From NCBI RefSeq assembly GCF_002797595.1, contig NZ_PGFE01000004.1, positions 248,001 to 312,000 on the forward strand: 64,000 nucleotides of DNA, in the 5' to 3' direction. Position 1 is the first letter of the stretch. Each line of letters starts with the position of its first letter. This document shows positions 4,089 through 62,357 of the stretch, piece after piece. The stretch is from Sediminihabitans luteus. Lineage in GTDB: Bacteria > Actinomycetota > Actinomycetes > Actinomycetales > Cellulomonadaceae. Under the pieces are notes generated by a model. That model was given only the letters and a program-made list of their open reading frames with translations. It searched no databases and was not told the origin of the DNA. A program made the translations under genes and the position numbers.

Positions 4089-5783
4089 GTGACCCCCGAC
4101 GAGCTCTCCCGCGCGCTCAGCGCCGCCCTGGCCGCCGCCGTCGCCGACGGCACCCTCGCCCTGCCCGCCGACGCGGTGCCCGACTCCGTCCACGTCGAGC
4201 GACCCCGTCAGCGCGAGCACGGCGACTGGGCCACGAACGTCGCGCTGCAGCTCGCCAAGAAGGCCGGCACGACGCCGCGCGCGCTCGCGGAGGACCTCGC
4301 GGCCCGCCTGTCCGCCACGCCGGGGGTCAAGGCCGTCGACGTCGCCGGGCCCGGGTTCCTCAACATCACGCTCGACGCCGGTGCGGCGGGCGAGCTCGCG
4401 CGCACGATCCTGGCGGCGGGCGAGGCGTACGGGCGCAACGAGTCCGAGGCCGGCACGCGCATCAACCTCGAGTTCGTCTCGGCGAACCCGACCGGTCCGA
4501 TCCACATCGGCGGCGTGCGCTGGGCCGCCGTCGGCGACTCGCTCGCCCGGGTGCTCGAGGCCTCGGGCGCCGAGGTGACGCGCGAGTACTACTTCAACGA
4601 CCACGGCGCGCAGATCGACCGGTTCGCGCGCTCGCTGCTCGCGCGCGCCCTGGGCGAGCCCGCCCCCGAGGACGGCTACGGCGGGCAGTACATCAGCGAG
4701 ATCGCCGACGCCGTGATCGCCGACGCGCTCGCCGCCGGCGAGCCCGACCCGCGCACGCTGCCCGCGGCCGAGGCGCAGGAGGCCTTCCGGGCCCGGGGCG
4801 TCGACCGCATGTTCGGCGAGATCAAGCAGTCGCTGCACGAGTTCGGCGTCGACTTCGACGTCTACTTCCACGAGGACCACCTGCACGAGTCGGGCGCGGT
4901 CGACCGCGCCGTGCAGCGCCTGCGCGACGCCGGGCACGTGTTCGAGGCCGACGGCGCGACGTGGCTGCGCACGACGACCTTCGGCGACGACAAGGACCGC
5001 GTCGTCATCAAGTCGGACGGCGAGGCCGCGTACATCGCGGGCGACATCGCCTACTACCTCGACAAGCGTGAGCGCGGCTTCGACGACGTCATCATCATGC
5101 TCGGCGCCGACCATCACGGGTACGTCGCGCGCATGATGGCGGTCTGCGCGGCCTTCGGCGACGAACCGCGCAAGAACCTCCAGATCCTCATCGGCCAGCT
5201 CGTGAACCTCGTCAAGGACGGCGAGGCGGTGCGCATGTCCAAGCGCGCCGGGACCGTCGTCACGCTCGAGGACCTCGTCGACGCGGTCGGCGTGGACGCC
5301 GCGCGCTACTCGCTCGCGCGGTCCTCGGTCGACTCCAGCATCGACCTCGACCTCGGGCTGCTCGCGCGGGCCACCAACGAGAACCCGGTCTACTACGTGC
5401 AGTACGCGCACTCGCGGACCGTCAACGTGGCGCTCAACGCCGCCTCGCACGGCGTCTCGCGCCACCGCGAGGACGGCTCCGACGCGTTCGACCCGTCGCT
5501 GCTCGAGCACCCGACCGAGGCCGCGCTCATCGGCCGCCTCACCGAGTTCCCGCGCATCGTGGGCCAGGCGGCCGAGCTGCGCGAGCCCCACCGCGTCGCG
5601 CGCTACCTCGAGGCGCTCGCGGGCGACTACCACTCCTGGTACCACGACTGCCGTGTGACCCCCAAGGGCGACGAGGAGGTCACGGACCTACACCGCACCC
5701 GCCTGTGGCTCAGCGACGCCTCGCGCCAGGTGCTCGCGAACGGTCTCGGCCTGCTCGGCGTCAGCGCGCCGGAGCGGATGTGA
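4089..5783 (+). CDS. argS: Arginyl-tRNA synthetase
   Basis: Cytoplasmic class I aminoacyl-tRNA synthetase that charges tRNA-Arg with arginine using ATP. The 564-residue length is normal. An N-terminal Arg-tRNA synthetase additional domain is followed by the Rossmann catalytic core with the HIGH-type motif HIGG at residues 139-142. The KMSKS-type motif RMSKR is at 382-386, and the C-terminal helical anticodon-binding (DALR) domain ends in [10 protein letters not shown] leaderless promoter precedes the GTG start. The stop TGA overlaps the GTG of lysA by 4 nt, so the two are translationally coupled, a known actinobacterial arrangement. Confidence 0.97.
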
Positions 5784-54358: not shown

Positions 54359-56956
54359 GTGAGAGCCATCCGACGATTCACCGTCCGCACCCTGCTGCCC
54401 GCCGCGCTCGCGCCCCTCGACGAGCTCGCGCACAACCTGCGCTGGTCGTGGCACACCCCGACCGCCGACCTCTTCTCGGGCGTCGACCCGGCGCTGTGGG
54501 ACGAGGTCCACCGCGACCCCGTCGCGATGCTCGGCGCGCTCGGGCCCGAGCGCCTCGCGGCGCTCGCGGGCGACGGCGCGTTCGTCGACCGCGTGCGCGC
54601 GGCGTCGGCCGACCTGCGCGAGTACCGCGAGGGTGAGCGCTGGTACCAGTGGCGCTCGCGCGAGATCGAGGCCGCGGGCGGCGAGGCGCTGCCCGCGTCG
54701 ATCGCCTACTTCTCGCCCGAGTTCGGCATCACGGCCGTGCTGCCCCAGTACTCGGGGGGCCTCGGGATCCTCGCGGGCGACCACCTGAAGTCCGCGAGCG
54801 ACCTGGGCGTGCCGATCGTCGGCGTCGGCCTGCTCTACGGCGCCGGGTACTTCAAGCAGTCGCTCACCCGGGACGGCTGGCAGGCGGAGACCTACCCCGT
54901 GCTCGACCCGGACGGCCTGCCGCTCACGGTGCTGCGCGAGGACGACGGCACGCCCGCGCGCATCACGATCGACCTGCCCGCGGGGCGCGTGCTGCACGCG
55001 CACGTGCGCGTCGCGACGGTCGGCCGCGTGCCGCTGCTGCTGCTCGACGCGGACGTGCCGGAGAACGACGACGCCGCGCGCAAGGTCACCGACCGCCTCT
55101 ACGGCGGCGGCGGCGAGCACCGGCTCCAGCAGGAGCTCCTGCTCGGCGTCGGCGGCGTGCGCGCGCTGCGCACCTGGTCGCGCCTGACCGGTGCGCCCGC
55201 GCCCGAGGTCTACCACACCAACGAGGGCCACGCGGGGTTCCTCGGCGTCGAGCGGATCACCGAGCTCGTGGGCGAGGGGCTCGCGTTCGACGAGGCGCTC
55301 GAGGTGGTGCGCGCCGCGACGGTGTTCACGACGCACACGCCCGTGCCCGCGGGCATCGACCGGTTCGGGCGCGACCTCGTCGCGCAGTACTTCGGGGGCG
55401 ACAACGAGGCCGCGGGCGTGCCCGTGGACCGGGTGCTCGCGCTCGGTGCCGAGAGCTACGACGGCGGCGACCCGGGCGTGTTCAACATGGCGCTCATGGG
55501 TCTGCGGCTCGGCGGGCGCTCCAACGGCGTCTCGCTGCTGCACGGCGAGGTCTCGCGCGGCATGTTCAACGGGCTGTGGCCGGGATTCGACCCGGCCGAG
55601 GTGCCGATCACGTCGGTCACGAACGGCGTGCACTCGCCCACGTGGGTCGCGCCCGAGATCCTCGACCTGCAGCGCGAGCGCCTCGGGATCGACCCGGTCG
55701 GCACCCCGACCGCGGGCTTCGACGCGTGGCTCGGCGACGGCGTCGGCGACGAGGAGCTGTGGGCGCTGCGTCGCACGCTGCGCACCCGGCTCGTCGAGGA
55801 GGCCCGCGCCCGGCTGCGGCGCTCGTGGCGCGACCGCGGGGCGAGCCCGGCCGAGCTCGGCTGGGTCGACGAGGCCCTCTCGCCCGACGTCCTGACGATC
55901 GGCTTCGCGCGCCGCGTGCCCACGTACAAGCGCCTCACGCTCATGCTCCGCGACCCCGAGCGCCTGCGCGCGCTGCTGACCGACCCGCAGCGTCCCGTGC
56001 AGCTCGTCGTCGCGGGCAAGTCGCACCCGGCCGACGACCAGGGCAAGCGCCTGATCCAGCAGCTCGTGCGGTTCACCGACGAGCACGACGTGCGGCACCG
56101 CATCGTGTTCCTGCCCAACTACGACATCGCGATGGCGCAGGACCTCTACCCGGGCTGCGACGTGTGGCTCAACAACCCGCTGCGCCCGCTCGAGGCGTCG
56201 GGCACGTCGGGCATGAAGTCCGCGCTCAACGGCGGCCTGAACCTGTCGATCCTCGACGGGTGGTGGGACGAGTGGTTCGACGGCGACAACGGCTGGGCGA
56301 TCCCGACCGCGGACGGCGTCGACGACCCCGACCGGCGCGACGACCTCGAGGCCGCGGCGCTGTACGACCTCGTCGAGCAGCAGGTCGCCGCGCGCTTCTA
56401 CGACCGCGACGAGCGGGGCGTACCGCCGCGCTGGCTCGCGATGGTGCGGCACACGTTCGCGTCGCTCGGGCCCAAGGTCCAGGCCACGCGCATGGTCGCC
56501 GAGTACGTCGAGCGGCTGTACGCACCCGCCGCGACGGCCGGGCGCGCGCTCGACGCCGCGGGGCACGAGCCCGCCCGCGAGCTCGCCGCCTGGAAGGCGC
56601 GCGTGCGCGCCAGCTGGTCGGGCGTGCGCGTCGACCACGTCGAGTCGGCCGGGATCGGCGAGGTGCCGCAGGTCGGCGACACGCTCACGGTGCGCGCCGA
56701 CGTGACCCTCGGCGACCTCGACCCGTCGGACGTCGAGGTGCAGGTCGTGCACGGCGCCGTGGGCGAGAACGACGTGATCTCGAGCTACGCGACCGCGCCG
56801 ATCGCGCTCGCCGAGTCGTACGAGGCCGGGCGGCACGCGTTCGTCGGCACCGTCACGCTCGACGCGTCCGGCCCGTTCGGGTACACGGTGCGCGTCGTGC
56901 CCACCCACGCGGGTCTCGTGAGCCCCGCCGAGATGGGGCTCACGGCCAACGCCTGA
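54359..56956 (+). CDS. glgP: Alpha-glucan phosphorylase
   Basis: PLP-dependent GT35 enzyme that releases glucose-1-phosphate from glycogen or maltodextrin. The 865-residue protein is of the bacterial/archaeal type with an N-terminal DUF3417 region (LLPAALAPLDELAHNLRWSWH), the barrel motif SIAYFSPEFGI, the glucan and phosphate regions (TVFTTHTPVPAG, FARRVPTYKR), and the PLP lysine Lys620 in GTSGMKSALNG. A ~120-residue C-terminal domain follows, beginning RASWSGVRVDHVE. GTG at 54359 with the leaderless-type -10 box. Divergent from glgE, its biosynthetic opposite. Confidence 0.95.
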   Translation: MRAIRRFTVRTLLPAALAPLDELAHNLRWSWHTPTADLFSGVDPALWDEVHRDPVAMLGALGPERLAALAGDGAFVDRVRAASADLREYREGERWYQWRSREIEAAGGEALPASIAYFSPEFGITAVLPQYSGGLGILAGDHLKSASDLGVPIVGVGLLYGAGYFKQSLTRDGWQAETYPVLDPDGLPLTVLREDDGTPARITIDLPAGRVLHAHVRVATVGRVPLLLLDADVPENDDAARKVTDRLYGGGGEHRLQQELLLGVGGVRALRTWSRLTGAPAPEVYHTNEGHAGFLGVERITELVGEGLAFDEALEVVRAATVFTTHTPVPAGIDRFGRDLVAQYFGGDNEAAGVPVDRVLALGAESYDGGDPGVFNMALMGLRLGGRSNGVSLLHGEVSRGMFNGLWPGFDPAEVPITSVTNGVHSPTWVAPEILDLQRERLGIDPVGTPTAGFDAWLGDGVGDEELWALRRTLRTRLVEEARARLRRSWRDRGASPAELGWVDEALSPDVLTIGFARRVPTYKRLTLMLRDPERLRALLTDPQRPVQLVVAGKSHPADDQGKRLIQQLVRFTDEHDVRHRIVFLPNYDIAMAQDLYPGCDVWLNNPLRPLEASGTSGMKSALNGGLNLSILDGWWDEWFDGDNGWAIPTADGVDDPDRRDDLEAAALYDLVEQQVAARFYDRDERGVPPRWLAMVRHTFASLGPKVQATRMVAEYVERLYAPAATAGRALDAAGHEPARELAAWKARVRASWSGVRVDHVESAGIGEVPQVGDTLTVRADVTLGDLDPSDVEVQVVHGAVGENDVISSYATAPIALAESYEAGRHAFVGTVTLDASGPFGYTVRVVPTHAGLVSPAEMGLTANA

Positions 56957-56970
56957 CGGCGCCACGCGTC

Positions 56971-57038
56971 GTCGGGCACCACCCGCCGTCGGGCACCCTT
57001 CGACGTCGGGCATCACCCGCCGTCCGGCCCGCTGCCGA
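56971..57038. repeat. 17-bp tandem repeat after glgP
   Basis: Units of 17 bp start at 56971, 56988, 57005 and 57022. Each begins GTCGGGCA or GTCCGGCC; the first and third differ by one base. It lies 14 nt after the glgP stop. Confidence 0.65.
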
Positions 57039-57054
57039 GGCAAACCCTTCCGCC

Positions 57055-57119
57055 GAGGTAGAACCGAGCGCGCGAGATAGAACCTCCCACGTTCTATCTC
57101 GCGCGCTCGGTTCTATCTC
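57055..57119. repeat. Left palindrome of the nuclease unit
   Basis: A perfect 25-bp inverted repeat (57059-57083 with 57091-57115), near-perfect to 30 bp, with the 7-nt loop CTCCCAC. It contains four 10-mers: GAGGTAGAAC (57055) and GAGATAGAAC (57074), then GTTCTATCTC (57091, 57110), the direct pair in each arm spaced 19 bp. The same element recurs at 58191-58255. It may serve as a terminator for glgP or as a protein or nuclease target. Confidence 0.9.
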
Positions 57120-57174
57120 GCGGGCCGTCGTCCACAGATGGGACCCGGACCGCACCGTGGCGGGCGTGTCCCGG

Positions 57175-57180
57175 CAGGCT
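57175..57180 (+). promoter_or_regulatory. Possible -10 box of the nuclease-like gene (leaderless)
   Basis: CAGGCT ends 6 nt before the ATG at 57187. It differs from the TAGGCT box used elsewhere in the window by one base. Confidence 0.35.
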
Positions 57181-57186
57181 GGCCGC

Positions 57187-58197
57187 ATGACCTCAGGCGT
57201 CCCCGGCAGCGACCGACCACCCGTCGTCGACCGACCACCCGTCGTCGACCGACCTCCCGGCGCCGGGCTGCCCCGGCCCGTGCGGTACGACGACGTCGGC
57301 CGGGCGCAGATCGAGCGTCGCGTGCGCGAGGGCACGCTGCGGCGGGTGCGTCGTGGCGTGTACCTGCCGCCCGCGACCGGCGACTCCGTCGCGACCCGGC
57401 GCACGGACGAGCACCGGGCGCAGGTCGTGGCGCTGACCGCGCGGCTCGGGACCGACCACTGGATCAGCCACGAGAGCGCGGCCGTGGTCTGGGGGTGCTG
57501 GACGTACCGGCTCGGCGGCCGGGTCCACGTGACGCAGCTCGGCAACCCGAGCGTGCGCGCCGCCGACACCTCGGTGCGCCGGCACTGGACGAGCCTCCCG
57601 CCCCGCGACCGCTCGCGCGTCGACGGGGTGCCGGTCACGAGCCTCGAACGGACCGTCGTCGACTGCGCGCGCGTGCTGCCGATGCCCGGCGCGCTCGTGG
57701 TGGCCGACTCGGCGCTGCGGCTCGGCGCGCGGCCCGCGCTGCTCGCGACGCTCGTCGACGAGGCCGTCGGACGTCGCGGGGTACGTCAGGCGCGGCGCGT
57801 CGTCGAGCTCGCGGACGGTACGTCGGAGTCCCCGGGCGAGACGTTGGTCCGGTGGGTGGCGCTCGACGCGGGCCTCCCGCCGCTCGTGGGACAGGTCGCG
57901 GTGCACACCTGGCAGGGTGCCTTCCGGCTCGACGCCGGGTGGCCCGACGTCCGCGTCGGGATCGAGTTCGACGGCAAGGTCAAGTACGGCGGGGGCCTCT
58001 ACGGGGACCCGCAGGAGCGGCTGCTCGCCGAGAAGGCCCGTCACGACGCGATCGTCGAGGCCGGCTGGACGCTGCTGCGTGTGACCTGGGCGGACCTCGC
58101 CGACCCCGAGTCGCTCGCGTCCAGGCTCCGCTCGGCCCGCTCGCGGGCGTTCGGTCGTCCGCGGCGGCCGACGGGCGGTGCGGCCGCCGCGAGATAG
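57187..58197 (+). CDS. Predicted nuclease: AbiEi-like N-terminus with DUF559/Vsr-like domain
   Basis: A 336-residue protein. Residues ~1-30 are a Pro/Asp-rich stretch from an imperfect 18-bp DNA repeat. Residues ~40-62 (IERRVREGTLRRVRRGVYLPP) resemble the winged helix of AbiEi-type antitoxins and related regulators. Residues ~210-310 have the layout of DUF559/Vsr-like endonucleases: SESPGETLVRW, Asp249, IEFDGKVKYG with Glu260, Asp262 and Lys264, then ERLLAEKARHDAIVEAGW and LLRVTWADL. Catalysis is not shown. The DNA target and role are unknown. The stop TAG (58195-58197) lies inside the first 10-mer of the right palindrome, and the gene is bracketed by the palindrome pair. Confidence 0.75.
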   Translation: MTSGVPGSDRPPVVDRPPVVDRPPGAGLPRPVRYDDVGRAQIERRVREGTLRRVRRGVYLPPATGDSVATRRTDEHRAQVVALTARLGTDHWISHESAAVVWGCWTYRLGGRVHVTQLGNPSVRAADTSVRRHWTSLPPRDRSRVDGVPVTSLERTVVDCARVLPMPGALVVADSALRLGARPALLATLVDEAVGRRGVRQARRVVELADGTSESPGETLVRWVALDAGLPPLVGQVAVHTWQGAFRLDAGWPDVRVGIEFDGKVKYGGGLYGDPQERLLAEKARHDAIVEAGWTLLRVTWADLADPESLASRLRSARSRAFGRPRRPTGGAAAAR

Positions 58198-58257
58198 AAC
58201 CGAGCGCGCGAGATAGAACCTCCCACGTTCTATCTCGCGCGCACAGTTCTACCTCGC
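58189..58257. repeat. Right palindrome of the nuclease unit
   Basis: A second copy of the element at 57055-57119, with the same 7-nt loop (58220-58226) and a ~33-bp stem with three mismatches. 10-mers GAGATAGAAC at 58191 and 58210, GTTCTATCTC at 58227 and GTTCTACCTC at 58246, again 19 bp apart. It holds the stop codon of the nuclease-like gene and lies between it and the convergent flavoprotein gene. Confidence 0.9.
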
Positions 58258-58334
58258 GGAGGGCCATCGCAGCGGGCCCCCACGGCGGGCTCTCGCGGCG
58301 GGCCCTACGGCGGCCCGGGCGAGGGCGGACGGCG

Positions 58335-60074
58335 TCAGCGCAGCTCGCGCGCCAGGGCCCGTCCCGCCGTCCGACCCGTGAAGAGGCACCCGCCGAGGAA
58401 GGTCCCCTCGAGGGCCCGGTGGCCGTGCACGCCGCCGCCGCCGAACCCGGCCGCCTCGCCCACGGCCCACAGGCCGGGCAGCACCTCGCCCGCGGCGTCG
58501 AGCGCGCGGCCGGCGGCGTCGGTGTGCAGACCGCCGAGGGTCTTGCGCGTGAGCACGGACAGACGCACCGCGAGCAGCGGGCCGTCCTGCGGGTCGGTCA
58601 GCGCGCGGGGCGGAGCGACGCGCATGACCCGGTCGACCGAGAACCTGCGCGCTGCGGCCACGGCCGTGACCTGCGGGTCCTTGCCGAGCCCCGAGAGCAC
58701 CTGCGCGTCGCGTGCGGCCACGAGCGCCGCGAGCGCGTCGGCGTCGACGTGCCCGCGAGCGCCCGGCGTGGCCTCGGTCAGCGCGTTCATGCCGGCCGCG
58801 AGCCCCGCGACGTCGTCGGCGAACACGAACTCGGGCGACTGCTCGGCGAACCGGGCGACCGGGCCCACGGCGCCGGGGCGCACGCGGTCCAGGAGCAGGC
58901 GCACGTCGCGCCCCGTGAGGTCGGGGTTCTGCTCCGAGCCGGACAGCGCGAACTCGGTCTCCATGATGCGCCGGTTGAGCACGAACCAGGAGTGGTCGTC
59001 GCCGCGCGCGGTCACGTGCTCGAGCGCGCCGAGCGCGTCGAAGCCCGGGAAGAGGGGAGCGGGCAGGCGGCCGCCGTCCGCGTCGACCCACAGCGACGAC
59101 GGCCCGGGCAGGATCCGGATCCCGTGCGCGGTCCACACGGGCGAGTGGTTCGCGATGCCCTCGGGGTAGTGCCACATGCGGTCCTCGTGCACGAGCGCGG
59201 CACCCGCCGCGGCCGCGTGGCCGATCATGAGGCCGTCGGTCGAGTCGGGCACGCCGGAGAGCATGCGCGCGGGCAGCGTCCCGGCGCTCGCGGGCCAGCG
59301 CTCGCGCACGAGCTCGTGGTTCGCGCCGATGCCGCCGGACGCGATCACGACCGCGCCCGCGCTGATCTCGACCTCGCCGACGACCTCGCGCGACGACGGC
59401 TCGCCACGCCCCGCGCGCGAGGGGGCGAGGCGTTCGGCGCGCACGCCCGTGACGCGTCCGTCGGTCGTCACGAGCGACGTCACGCGGTGCCGGAACCGCA
59501 GGTCGAGCAGCCCGTCGCGGTGCGCGTCGAGCGCGGCGCGCACGAACGGCTCGAGGATCCCGGGGCCCGTGCCCCAGGTGACGTGGAACCGCGGCACGGA
59601 GTTCCCGTGGCCGCCCGCGGGGTAGCCGCCGCGCTCGGCCCACTGCACGAGCGGGAACCAGCGCACGCCGAGCCCGTGCAGCCACGAGCGCATCTCGCCG
59701 CCCGCGAAGTCCACGAACCCGCGCGCCCACGCGTAGCCGTGCCGGTCGGGGCCGCGCCCCTCGGCGGCGCCCTCGGCGAACCGGGCGGAGCCGAGCCAGT
59801 CGGCGAACGCGAGGTCGACCGAGTCGTGCACGCCGAGCCGCCGCTGCTCGGGCGAGTCGACGAGGAACAGCCCGCCGAACGACCAGAACGCCTGCCCGCC
59901 GAGGCTCGCGGGCGGCTCCTGGTCGAGCAGCACGACGCGGCGGCCGGCGGCGGTGAGCTGGGCGGCGGTCACGAGGCCCGAGAGTCCCGCGCCCACGACG
60001 ACGACGTCGGTGGCGACGTGCCGGGGGTGCGCGGGGTCGCCGGGGCGGGTGACGGAGTCGGCGGTGACTGTCAT
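58335..60074 (-). CDS. FAD-dependent dehydrogenase of the fumarate reductase/ketosteroid dehydrogenase type
   Basis: A 579-residue flavoprotein. The N-terminal FAD motif is VVVVGAGLSGLVTA, followed by LLDQEPPASLGGQAFWS. Later come the FAD-contacting stretch VIASGGIGANHELVRERW and the C-terminal LGGLHTDAAGRALDA with GLWAVGEAAGFGGGGVHG, both common to FAD-binding dehydrogenases that oxidise steroid-like rings or succinate. The substrate is not evident. It has no signal peptide. ATG at 60074 lies 22 nt downstream of the end of glgX, so they may be co-transcribed without being functionally related. Confidence 0.87.
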   Translation of the reverse strand: MTVTADSVTRPGDPAHPRHVATDVVVVGAGLSGLVTAAQLTAAGRRVVLLDQEPPASLGGQAFWSFGGLFLVDSPEQRRLGVHDSVDLAFADWLGSARFAEGAAEGRGPDRHGYAWARGFVDFAGGEMRSWLHGLGVRWFPLVQWAERGGYPAGGHGNSVPRFHVTWGTGPGILEPFVRAALDAHRDGLLDLRFRHRVTSLVTTDGRVTGVRAERLAPSRAGRGEPSSREVVGEVEISAGAVVIASGGIGANHELVRERWPASAGTLPARMLSGVPDSTDGLMIGHAAAAGAALVHEDRMWHYPEGIANHSPVWTAHGIRILPGPSSLWVDADGGRLPAPLFPGFDALGALEHVTARGDDHSWFVLNRRIMETEFALSGSEQNPDLTGRDVRLLLDRVRPGAVGPVARFAEQSPEFVFADDVAGLAAGMNALTEATPGARGHVDADALAALVAARDAQVLSGLGKDPQVTAVAAARRFSVDRVMRVAPPRALTDPQDGPLLAVRLSVLTRKTLGGLHTDAAGRALDAAGEVLPGLWAVGEAAGFGGGGVHGHRALEGTFLGGCLFTGRTAGRALARELR

Positions 60075-60095: not shown

Positions 60096-62357
60096 TCAGG
60101 CCGAGATGTACACGTGCACGCTGAGCGGTTCGAGCAGCGCGCGCGCACCGGGCGCGAGGTGCGCGTCGTCGGCCGTGCCGCGCTCGTCCGGGTGCTCCCA
60201 CACCGAGTCCCACGCGAGGTCCCACGTCCCGGGGCGGGGGCCGGGGACGTCGTCCGGCACGGGGACGGCGGGGAGCGTGACCTCGACCTCGTCGAGCGAC
60301 CCGTTGAGCACGAGCAGGACGTCGTGCGCGCCGTCCGCGGGGCCGGTGCGCAGCATCTGCAGCACTCGGCGGTCGGGCGCGACCCAGCCCCCGTGGTCGA
60401 GCGGGGCGCCGGTCGCGTCGAACCACGCGAGGTCGGGCACGGCCGTGCGCAGCGCGTGCCGGGGTCGGCCGAGGTAGAACGCGTCGGCGCGCAGGGCGCG
60501 GTGCTCGCGCCGCAGCGCGAGCAGGTGGCGCGTGGTCGCGAGGAAGTCCTGCCGCCACGGCGACAGGTCCCACGAGACCCACGAGGTCGGGGTGTCCTGG
60601 CAGTAGGCGTTGTTGTTGCCGCGCTGGGTGCGGCCCATCTCGTCGCCCGCGGTCAGCATCGGGGTGCCCGCCGCGAGCACGAGCGTGGCGAGCAGGTTGC
60701 GCATCGAGCGACGGCGCAGGGGGACGATCTCGATGCCGGGCGCGAGCGCGGCGTCGCCCGTCTCGACGCGGCCCTCGAGGCCGTGGTTCCACGAGCGGTT
60801 GTCGCCCGAGCCGTCGCGGCCGTCCTCGCCGTTGGCCTCGTTGTGCTTGTGGTCGTAGGCGACGAGGTCGGCGAGCGTGAAGCCGTCGTGCGCGGTGACG
60901 AGGTTGACCGACGCGACGGGACCGCGCACGAGCGGCGGGTCGCTGTGCCCGAACAGGTCGGCGGAGCCGGCCAGGCGGGTCGCGAGCTCGCGCACCCCGT
61001 GCCCGGCACGCCCGTGCGACGCCTCGCGCGCGTCCGCGAGCCAGAACTGTCGTGCGGCGTCGCGGAACCGGTCGTTCCACTCGGCCATCGGCGCGGGGAA
61101 GTTCCCGGTCTGCCAGCCCCCGGGGCCCACGTCCCAGGGCTCGGCGATCAGCTTGAGCCCGTTGAGCACCGGGTCGGTCTGCAGCGCGACGAGGAACGGG
61201 TGGTCGGGGTCGAACCCGTGGTGGCCGCGCCCCAGCGTCACCGCGAGGTCGAACCGGAACCCGTCCACACCGACCTCCTGCGCCCAGTACCGCAGGGAGT
61301 CGAGCGTCATCTGCACCACGCGGGGGCGACGGTGGTCGAGCGTGTTGCCCGTGCCGGTCACGTCCGCGAACCGGACCGGCGTGCCGTCGTCGTGCAGGTA
61401 GTAGCCCCGCGCGTCGAGCCCGCGCCACGACAGCTGCGGCCCGTCGTCCCCGGCCTCGCAGGTGTGGTTGTGCACGACGTCGAGGATCACCTCGATCCCG
61501 GCCTCGTGGAGCAGGTGCACCATGCCGCGGACCTCCTCGAGGACGGCGCCCGGCCCGGCGTCGCGCGCCGCCGCCGTCGCGTACCCGGGGTGGGGGGTGA
61601 AGAACCCGAGCGTCGAGTAGCCCCAGTAGTTGGTCAGGCCCTTGACCGCGAGGTGGGGCTCGTCGACGAACGCGTGCACGGGCAGCAGCTCGAGCGTCGT
61701 GACGCCGAGCGAGCGCAGGTGCTCGATCGTGGCGGGGTGCGCGAGGCCCGCGTAGGTGCCGCGCAGCTCCTCGGGCAGCGCGTCGAGGCCGATCGTCAGG
61801 CCGCGCACGTGCGCCTCGTAGACCACGGTCTGCGACCACGGCACGTGCGGGCGGGGCGCCTGGTCGCCCGTGCGCGGGGCGACGACGACCGAGAGCGGCA
61901 CGTGCCCGAGCGAGTCGCGCGGGTCCAGCTCCCCGAAGGGGTCCCCGACCACGCGGCCGTCGTCGTCGACCTCGGCGACGTACCCGTAGCCCACGGGCGA
62001 GTGGTCGAACGCGCCCACGATCCCGCGCGCGTACGGGTCGACGAGGAGCTTGGCGGGGTTGTGCCGCAGGCCCTCGGCGGGCACCCACGGCCCGTCGACG
62101 CGGAACCCGTAGCGCTGGCCCTCGGTCACGCCGGGCACGTGCGCGTGCCACACGCCGTACGTCGGCCCGTCGAGCGGGACGCGGCGCTCGCCGTCGTCGT
62201 CCACCAGGCACAGGTCGACCGCGGTGGCCCGTGCCGCGAGGACCGCGACGTCGACGCCGTCGCCCGCGAGGTGCACCCCGAGCGGGGGCACGTGGCCGTG
62301 GCGGTCGGTCGGGCGGACGGTCGGGCGGTGCGGGAGGGATCCGGTGGTGTCGCTCAC
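60096..62357 (-). CDS. glgX: Glycogen debranching enzyme
   Basis: Isoamylase-type GH13_11 enzyme that cuts alpha-1,6 branches left after phosphorylase has trimmed outer chains. The 753-residue protein has an N-terminal CBM48-like domain, the barrel motifs LDVVHNHTCEAG, the nucleophile Asp in VDGFRFDLAVTLG, Glu in LIAEPWDVGPGGWQ and Asp in VTAHDGFTLADL, then a C-terminal beta domain. GTG at 62357. CACAAT on the minus strand ends 6 nt before it, giving a leaderless mRNA. With glgP it forms the breakdown arm. Confidence 0.95.
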   Translation of the reverse strand: MSDTTGSLPHRPTVRPTDRHGHVPPLGVHLAGDGVDVAVLAARATAVDLCLVDDDGERRVPLDGPTYGVWHAHVPGVTEGQRYGFRVDGPWVPAEGLRHNPAKLLVDPYARGIVGAFDHSPVGYGYVAEVDDDGRVVGDPFGELDPRDSLGHVPLSVVVAPRTGDQAPRPHVPWSQTVVYEAHVRGLTIGLDALPEELRGTYAGLAHPATIEHLRSLGVTTLELLPVHAFVDEPHLAVKGLTNYWGYSTLGFFTPHPGYATAAARDAGPGAVLEEVRGMVHLLHEAGIEVILDVVHNHTCEAGDDGPQLSWRGLDARGYYLHDDGTPVRFADVTGTGNTLDHRRPRVVQMTLDSLRYWAQEVGVDGFRFDLAVTLGRGHHGFDPDHPFLVALQTDPVLNGLKLIAEPWDVGPGGWQTGNFPAPMAEWNDRFRDAARQFWLADAREASHGRAGHGVRELATRLAGSADLFGHSDPPLVRGPVASVNLVTAHDGFTLADLVAYDHKHNEANGEDGRDGSGDNRSWNHGLEGRVETGDAALAPGIEIVPLRRRSMRNLLATLVLAAGTPMLTAGDEMGRTQRGNNNAYCQDTPTSWVSWDLSPWRQDFLATTRHLLALRREHRALRADAFYLGRPRHALRTAVPDLAWFDATGAPLDHGGWVAPDRRVLQMLRTGPADGAHDVLLVLNGSLDEVEVTLPAVPVPDDVPGPRPGTWDLAWDSVWEHPDERGTADDAHLAPGARALLEPLSVHVYISA

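Follow-up and report, generated by a model that had tools for sequence, protein, structure and literature searches.

A candidate counterpart of REP/RAYT repeat systems around an AbiEi-type nuclease gene in Actinobacteria

The nuclease gene of Sediminihabitans luteus and its two palindromes

The window, i.e., the whole stretch of 64,000 nucleotides of Sediminihabitans luteus DNA that was analysed, contains a gene for a predicted nuclease with an AbiEi-like N-terminus which lies between two palindromes. The features of this locus are the following (window positions; direct and inverted words are marked > and <):

54359..56956, + strand: carbohydrate phosphorylase gene (called glgP), adjoining the nuclease gene in other genera too
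57055..57119, no strand: 5′ palindrome, words at 57055 (>), 57074 (>), 57091 (<) and 57110 (<), loop CTCCCAC
57187..58197, + strand: AbiEi-nuclease gene, 336 aa, ATG to TAG, start codon picked by eye
57271..57816, + strand: AbiEi-like DNA-binding half, residues 29-210, from structure matches and PADLOC
57829..58155, + strand: nuclease domain, residues 215-323, from structure matches and an alignment of 60 sequences
58191..58255, no strand: 3′ palindrome, words at 58191 (>), 58210 (>), 58227 (<) and 58246 (<), loop CTCCCAC
58335..60074, - strand: FAD-binding dehydrogenase-like gene, adjoining the nuclease gene in other genera too

The earlier note had described two near-identical palindromes of about 65 bp, located about 1.1 kb apart around the gene and built from two direct and two inverted copies of GAG(A/G)TAGAAC at 19-bp spacing with a common loop CTCCCAC. 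This arrangement was found exactly in both. Each palindrome has a length of 65 bp and contains the word GAGRTAGAAC four times without a mismatch, and as 70-bp copies including their edges the two show 94% identity and a distance of 1136 bp from start to start. The loop CTCCCAC is confined to this pair among 21 aligned elements of the S. luteus genome. The 5′ palindrome is located 3′ of glgP and 5′ of the nuclease gene, and the first word of the 3′ palindrome includes the TAG stop codon of the nuclease gene (58195-58197). A lone exact copy of the 10-mer at 60471-60480, within an open reading frame, is probably due to chance.

The calculated RNA folding energies of the two palindromes are -64.9 and -53.0 kcal/mol (z -12.6 and -11.0). 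One match to a terminator-like consensus was found at the locus, at 57064, and Rfam gave nothing at gathering score within 56900-58400. No toxin gene lies beside the nuclease gene, as its neighbors encode the carbohydrate phosphorylase and the FAD-binding protein.

The AlphaFold2 model of the protein, based on the alignment of 60 sequences, has a mean pLDDT of 90.7 and a pTM of 0.88. In this predicted model, residues 29-210 resemble the AbiEi antitoxin 6y8q (Z 10.6, rmsd 5.5, 164 aligned) and 1zel (Z 8.4). Residues 215-323 resemble the catalytic domain of I-Bth0305I (3r3p; Z 9.9, rmsd 2.7, 97 aligned) and Vsr (1vsr; Z 7.1, rmsd 2.9, 103 aligned). Both domain assignments of the earlier note are borne out in this way. 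The AbiEi-like N-terminus is recognized by PADLOC (best E 1.5e-13) and scores 22.4 bits with Pfam AbiEi_4, under the cut-off of 25, and the Vsr-like nuclease domain is recognized by structure, with Pfam giving a weak MTES_1575 match (E 0.12). The PADLOC AbiEi models match all 60 aligned members, in which weak Pfam matches at E ≤ 0.01 were obtained for AbiEi_4 (19), MTES_1575 (20), AbiEi_1 (9) and DUF559 (8). Neither the focal protein nor any of the 60 members matches Y1_Tnp of Pfam, and a sequence search for solved relatives returned weak matches to ribosomal protein S20, with E 0.03 or more. Among the best 50 of 455 matching viral predicted structures, DUF559, Vsr and other endonuclease-like proteins prevail, most of them covering about 100-190 columns.

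Eight columns are invariant in the 60 sequences, E218, D249, E260 and R285 among them, and K266 is nearly invariant (at least 90% of the sequences). We take these five residues to be the catalytic ones, following the PD-(D/E)xK motif. Their conservation fits a working site of the PD-(D/E)xK type. A phage or plasmid element was considered and rejected, since the phage collection contained no match and the plasmid collection one weak match, in a record of 11.85 Mb.

Matched flanks and gene-specific words in the protein family

The protein was located in 113 of 115 homologous loci, of which 109 were usable, the rest being dropped for short flanks or broken reading. A flank match was defined as a repeat common to the 5′ and 3′ flanks at a score S of at least 18. 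It was present in 83 of the 109 family loci compared with two of 217 control genes, which came from twenty genomes and twenty regions of 18 kb. None of the 42 controls whose intergenic gaps measured 60 bp or more on each side showed a match. The matched loci belong to 19 of 23 genera, including other families of the order, and 26 of the 109 loci stayed below the threshold. In addition, hairpins scoring at least 14 on both sides were found in 34 of the 109 family loci and in one of the 217 controls. In 24 of the 83 matched loci the stop codon lies inside the repeat word shared with the 5′ flank, as in S. luteus. The association of gene and palindromes is established statistically, and the link which the earlier note had drawn from one locus recurs across the family. 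Genes without GAGRTAGAAC, which it had regarded as speaking against the link, do exist, but mostly have another palindrome of their own.

One of the two control matches concerns an enolase gene between palindromes of another set, which read GAAGTCGAAYTCGGCCCC (L363:4213-4282 and 5696-5769 in genome G001); no family gene was found among the nearest genes listed. The distant relatives L067 and L053, from other families of the order, have flanking repeats of a quite different kind (GTGATCATGCA).

The words themselves differ between the genes. The 25 pairs of paralogs from the same genome have zero to three flank 8-mers in common. Two distant S. luteus paralogs also have matched flanks of their own (S=28 each, with slightly longer flanks). 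Across genomes, the proportion of pairs with at least three common 8-mers increases with protein identity: it is three of 276 at 20-30% identity, 86 of 1033 at 40-50% and 26 of 62 at 60-70%, and in the three bins above 70% it reaches 13/13, 14/15 and 3/3. Part of the word sharing among close homologs is plain common descent of the flanks.

The glgP gene, the FAD gene or both lie beside the family gene in 24 of 113 loci from six genera, with the family gene in both orientations. Even at this conserved locus different words are used, like CGAGGTCGAC (L040), CGAGTTCGATGC (L042), CGAGCAAGCG (L282) and CGAGTACGAGG (L290), and of the 210 pairs formed by its 21 usable loci, 51 share at least three 8-mers. 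As judged from these sequences, the word belongs to the gene and differs from gene to gene, also between orthologs at one locus.

Dispersed palindromes in S. luteus and related genomes

A genome-wide search for the 10-mer, as suggested in the earlier note, showed that it is dispersed, with 62 copies of GAGRTAGAAC in the S. luteus genome and six of the reversed control pattern. Using elements with at least one exact word each, 21 palindromic elements could be aligned, of which 19 are located away from the gene. A DNA-uptake-like word was rejected as an explanation, as exact copies outside the palindromes number seven, compared with six for the reversed control. The genome encodes four family members at E ≤ 1e-8, of which the focal gene is the only one with GAGRTAGAAC palindromes known at its locus: two further members that were fetched have no such word within their loci, and for the fourth (C1:476731) the nearest listed word is about 45 kb away. 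The earlier note would have counted many palindromes that lack a link to the gene family and behave as plain terminators against its reading; this applies in part only, as copies do occur often away from the gene.

In the 21 elements, 91.4% of the cells of the two arms are paired, compared with 87.7% in shuffles and 34-49% in slid controls. Cells changed on both arm sides number 28 compared with 14.2 in shuffles, a value reached in none of 500 shuffles. Conservation is high up to the edges CGAG...CTCG, with the adjoining C in 21 of 21 elements and the adjoining G in 95%, and drops beyond them, except for a C at -4 and a G at +4. Based on this drop, the unit has a length of about 67 bp. Neighboring elements, with less than 7 kb between them, resemble each other more closely than expected (five pairs, p 0.0012). 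Furthermore, the element at L076:3424 is the reverse complement of that at L078:2967 in 65 of 65 bases, with the two located on different contigs in unrelated flanks, which suggests that the palindrome alone was copied.

Three words were followed through 200 genomes of the host's taxonomic family: GAGRTAGAAC (word 1), pairs of CGAGTACGAG (word 2) and pairs of TGAGAYCGGTC (word 3). Counts per genome are pattern matches, of which one palindrome may give up to three. The paired pattern of word 1 occurs in 28 of the 200 genomes and in six of 25 genera, and its reversed control had no match. Word 2 is limited to three genomes (12 matches in G019, three in G059 and one in G084). Word 3 was found in 14 genomes, 12 of them from one genus with one to 31 matches and two elsewhere with one match each. 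Among the matches listed in a scan of named genomes, 66 of 80 stretches belong to Oerskovia, Cellulosimicrobium, Promicromonospora and Isoptericola and 14 to other bacteria, including two from Clostridium tepidiprofundi and two from Pontibacter species. Between genera GAGRTAGAAC is retained, with varying spacers and a unit length varying from 16 to 20 bp.

A further dispersed hairpin was observed in Promicromonospora, at L171:6378 (which reads CCGTTGAGTGC), L193:7311 and L220:1073, with GTTGAGTGC near the start.

The genomic context was analyzed for 87 distinct intergenic palindrome clusters from the S. luteus genome, Oerskovia flava and named contigs, after exclusion of 11 duplicates and of the 14 records from other bacteria. 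By rough heuristic gene calls, with the focal genes set by hand, 42 of the 87 clusters lie between convergent genes compared with 105 of 409 intergenic gaps, and eight of 87 between divergent genes compared with 78 of 409.

This placement after genes and between convergent genes is that of terminators, and the hairpins are very stable and include the terminator-like match at 57064. Plain intrinsic or bidirectional terminators which form a sequence family by chance, with the gene unlinked, would nevertheless leave unexplained the gene-specific matched words (83/109 vs. 2/217), the retention of a word across several genera while the spacers differ, and the tie of the word to protein identity. 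This explanation, already disfavored by these results, is very improbable, whereas terminator activity as a side effect of the palindromes is quite possible.

The placement also bears on autoregulation, in which the AbiEi half would act on the promoter of its own gene by binding the repeats there, like type IV toxin-antitoxin systems do, with the downstream and dispersed copies being by-products or a regulon. AbiEi of Streptococcus agalactiae and Rv2827c of Mycobacterium tuberculosis are described to bind inverted repeats in their promoters (PMC7319586), AbiEi models match all 60 aligned members, and the focal gene and many homologs are preceded by a palindrome. A regulator would have no need of an invariant nuclease site, though. 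Words are also present at or just after the stop codon, which is embedded in the common repeat word in 24 of 83 loci, and at many other sites, which are more often convergent than divergent gaps (42 and eight of the 87, with the rough gene calls). Moreover, the focal gene adjoins the phosphorylase and FAD-binding genes and no toxin partner. Autoregulation as the main role is considered unlikely.

The gene and the words were also compared genome by genome. Genomes with at least two word-1 matches were called word-1-rich, and a core gene was called flanked if three or more words were found around it, allowing one mismatch. A core gene flanked by word 1 is present in 14 of 24 word-1-rich genomes compared with five of 56 genomes with fewer than two matches, for which the core genes were fetched in part only (Fisher 6.9e-6). 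Among the core genes examined in the other ten word-1-rich genomes (G055, G110, G146, G128, G102, G082, G051, G103, G117 and G083), none was flanked by word 1. Similarly, G059 has palindromes of word 2, yet the gene fetched from it has another word in its flanks. Such word-rich genomes may hold remnants after gene loss, or may reflect assembly gaps or cross-recognition.

In G092, with 50 word-1 matches, the sole protein match above 300 bits has a tandem array of the word upstream with a 16-bp period (L305:1108-1261) and one inverted word copy downstream. The same genome contains two identical perfect palindromes of 54 bp on different contigs (C2:277845-277898 and C6:152670-152723), which end in the word.

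At one Promicromonospora site, which was aligned for six species, the palindrome is present in three, once in a decayed and once in an enlarged form, and absent in three. Neither a clean insertion nor a target-site duplication of the kind left by MITEs and DDE transposons could be made out there, because the intergenic DNA has been replaced and the flanks are too diverged. In related genomes, genes also come and go directly beside conserved palindromes: an MFS transporter gene is present at L215:6325-7793 and absent at L219:4345-4354, and a helix-turn-helix regulator with its neighbor is found at L091:1570-2900 in comparison to L131. The palindromes may be hot spots of gene gain and loss.

Such gain and loss, together with the ten word-rich genomes without a word-flanked gene among the core genes examined, also fits a nuclease gene that is a passenger, either a homing-type selfish gene which enters palindromes maintained otherwise or a cassette for which recombination between palindromes provides the exchange. 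In the predicted model the nuclease half is nearest to the catalytic domain of a homing endonuclease, and both orientations of the gene at the same locus are predicted by recombination between flanking inverted repeats. On the other hand, the gene is kept at one conserved locus in six genera, with no match in the phage collection and the single weak one in the 11.85-Mb plasmid record. Words which differ between the paralogs of one genome are unexpected for entry into a common repeat. A passenger role is considered unlikely.

Proposed mechanism and comparison with known systems

Of the mechanisms considered, the likeliest is that the gene and the palindromes form one cognate system in which the nuclease drives the upkeep of the palindromes, in a REPIN/RAYT-like manner with an unrelated enzyme. 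We regard this as probable, on the basis of the bracketed gene, the dispersed copies, the gene-specific words, the predicted fold and the conserved active site. Points which speak against it are the ten word-1-rich genomes without a word-flanked gene among the core genes examined, the five of 56 word-poor genomes which have one, the differing word in G059, the 26 of 109 loci below the threshold, and the Promicromonospora site, where replaced intergenic DNA and no clean insertion was seen. The protein would be a vertically inherited chromosomal nuclease whose AbiEi-type winged-helix half recognizes the short word and whose PD-(D/E)xK half (EDxHD/Vsr-like) cuts at or near the palindromes that carry it. 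Repair or copying at these cuts would spread the palindromes, maintain the complementarity of their arms and convert neighboring copies. In this way a population of palindromes of about 67 bp would persist, mainly at the 3′ ends of genes and possibly to some benefit of the host, and the word would drift jointly with the protein.

It is likely that the N-terminal half binds the word, because AbiEi-type proteins recognize multiple inverted repeats with specificity (PMC7319586). Cutting and copying are inferred from three observations, namely that the nuclease site is conserved, that the palindromes are dispersed and that some copies comprise the palindrome alone. Operator and terminator roles may coexist with this cognate system.

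More generally, the data favor, with some reserve, a second and independently evolved class of genes with a private palindrome population, in which an AbiEi-guided PD-(D/E)xK nuclease would replace the HUH transposase. This class would be widespread in the actinobacterial family of the host and reach other families of the order, many genomes having several systems in which each word evolves with its protein. If this is true, the REPIN/RAYT lifestyle, in which a domesticated enzyme maintains a population of tiny palindromes in the chromosome, arose more than once and from unrelated enzymes. The protein family also offers a large natural set of pairs of protein and target word, including orthologs at one locus with different words, which could be used to work out the evolution of DNA recognition by AbiEi-type winged-helix domains. 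Furthermore, a possible function is suggested for nucleases which are classified mostly under DUF names, and genes labeled as AbiEi antitoxin may be part of something else.

In the open PMC literature, no nuclease with cognate palindromes was found among the matches listed, and nothing was found which joins DUF559 with AbiEi or with actinobacterial repeats. The matches for DUF559 and palindromes are unrelated by title and the start of the abstract, and those for REP/RAYT, nucleases and Actinobacteria concern sponge Thaumarchaeota.

The names EDxHD, PD-(D/E)xK and REPIN are used here as is customary for these families. DUF559 and MTES_1575 (REase_MTES_1575), matched by eight and 20 of the 60 members, respectively (focal MTES_1575 match: E 0.12), are family names which carry no link to palindromes. 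The protein resembles I-Bth0305I (EDxHD) and Vsr in the acidic residues of the active site and in the predicted fold of residues 215-323. It differs from both in being encoded by a free-standing gene between intact neighbors, in its fused AbiEi half and in the dispersed palindromes. The system appears related to homing endonucleases through its nuclease domain.

With the AbiEi antitoxins, including those of AbiE systems and Rv2827c, the protein shares the predicted fold of residues 29-210, and characterized AbiEi members bind inverted repeats. S. agalactiae AbiEi and M. tuberculosis Rv2827c are reported to bind two and four 23-bp inverted repeats, respectively, in the promoter of each, with neither protein binding the repeats of the other (PMC7319586). 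Unlike the AbiE type IV toxin-antitoxin systems, the system described here has a fused nuclease, no toxin gene adjacent to the focal gene, and palindromes on both sides of the gene and genome-wide.

As far as genome architecture is concerned, the resemblance to REP/RAYT elements, which the earlier note had pointed out from the layout of the locus, is supported by the recurrent link between palindrome and gene, the words specific to each gene and the dispersed copies. Taking the REP/RAYT features from PMC2817692, PMC3733652 and PMC8049555, both kinds of system have a gene between two copies of its own palindrome (here the focal gene and the 83 of 109 matched family loci), extragenic palindromes dispersed downstream of genes and between convergent ones, arms whose complementarity is maintained, and a vertically inherited gene in few copies. 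In both, repeats also occur in genomes without the gene, here as judged by the core genes examined, as described for REPINs in Escherichia coli genomes without RAYT (PMC8049555).

RAYT (TnpA-REP) is an IS200/IS605-like HUH transposase, whereas the protein described here combines an AbiEi domain with a PD-(D/E)xK-like nuclease in place of HUH/Y1. In contrast to REP, the word is present in each focal palindrome as two direct and two inverted copies, varies from gene to gene and lacks a fixed GTAG or CGTC tag at one end of the repeat: the focal word has either GTAG or GATAG, and the words of many relatives contain no GTAG. RAYT as a hidden driver was rejected, as Y1_Tnp was found in none of 18 genomes and the same search was positive in five of 14 control genomes. 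With no RAYT-type transposase found in these 18 genomes, the system would work like REP/RAYT and yet is not RAYT. It is a member of neither RAYT/REP nor AbiE as defined here, and looks like an unrecognized counterpart of the REP/RAYT repeat systems which is built on an unrelated enzyme.
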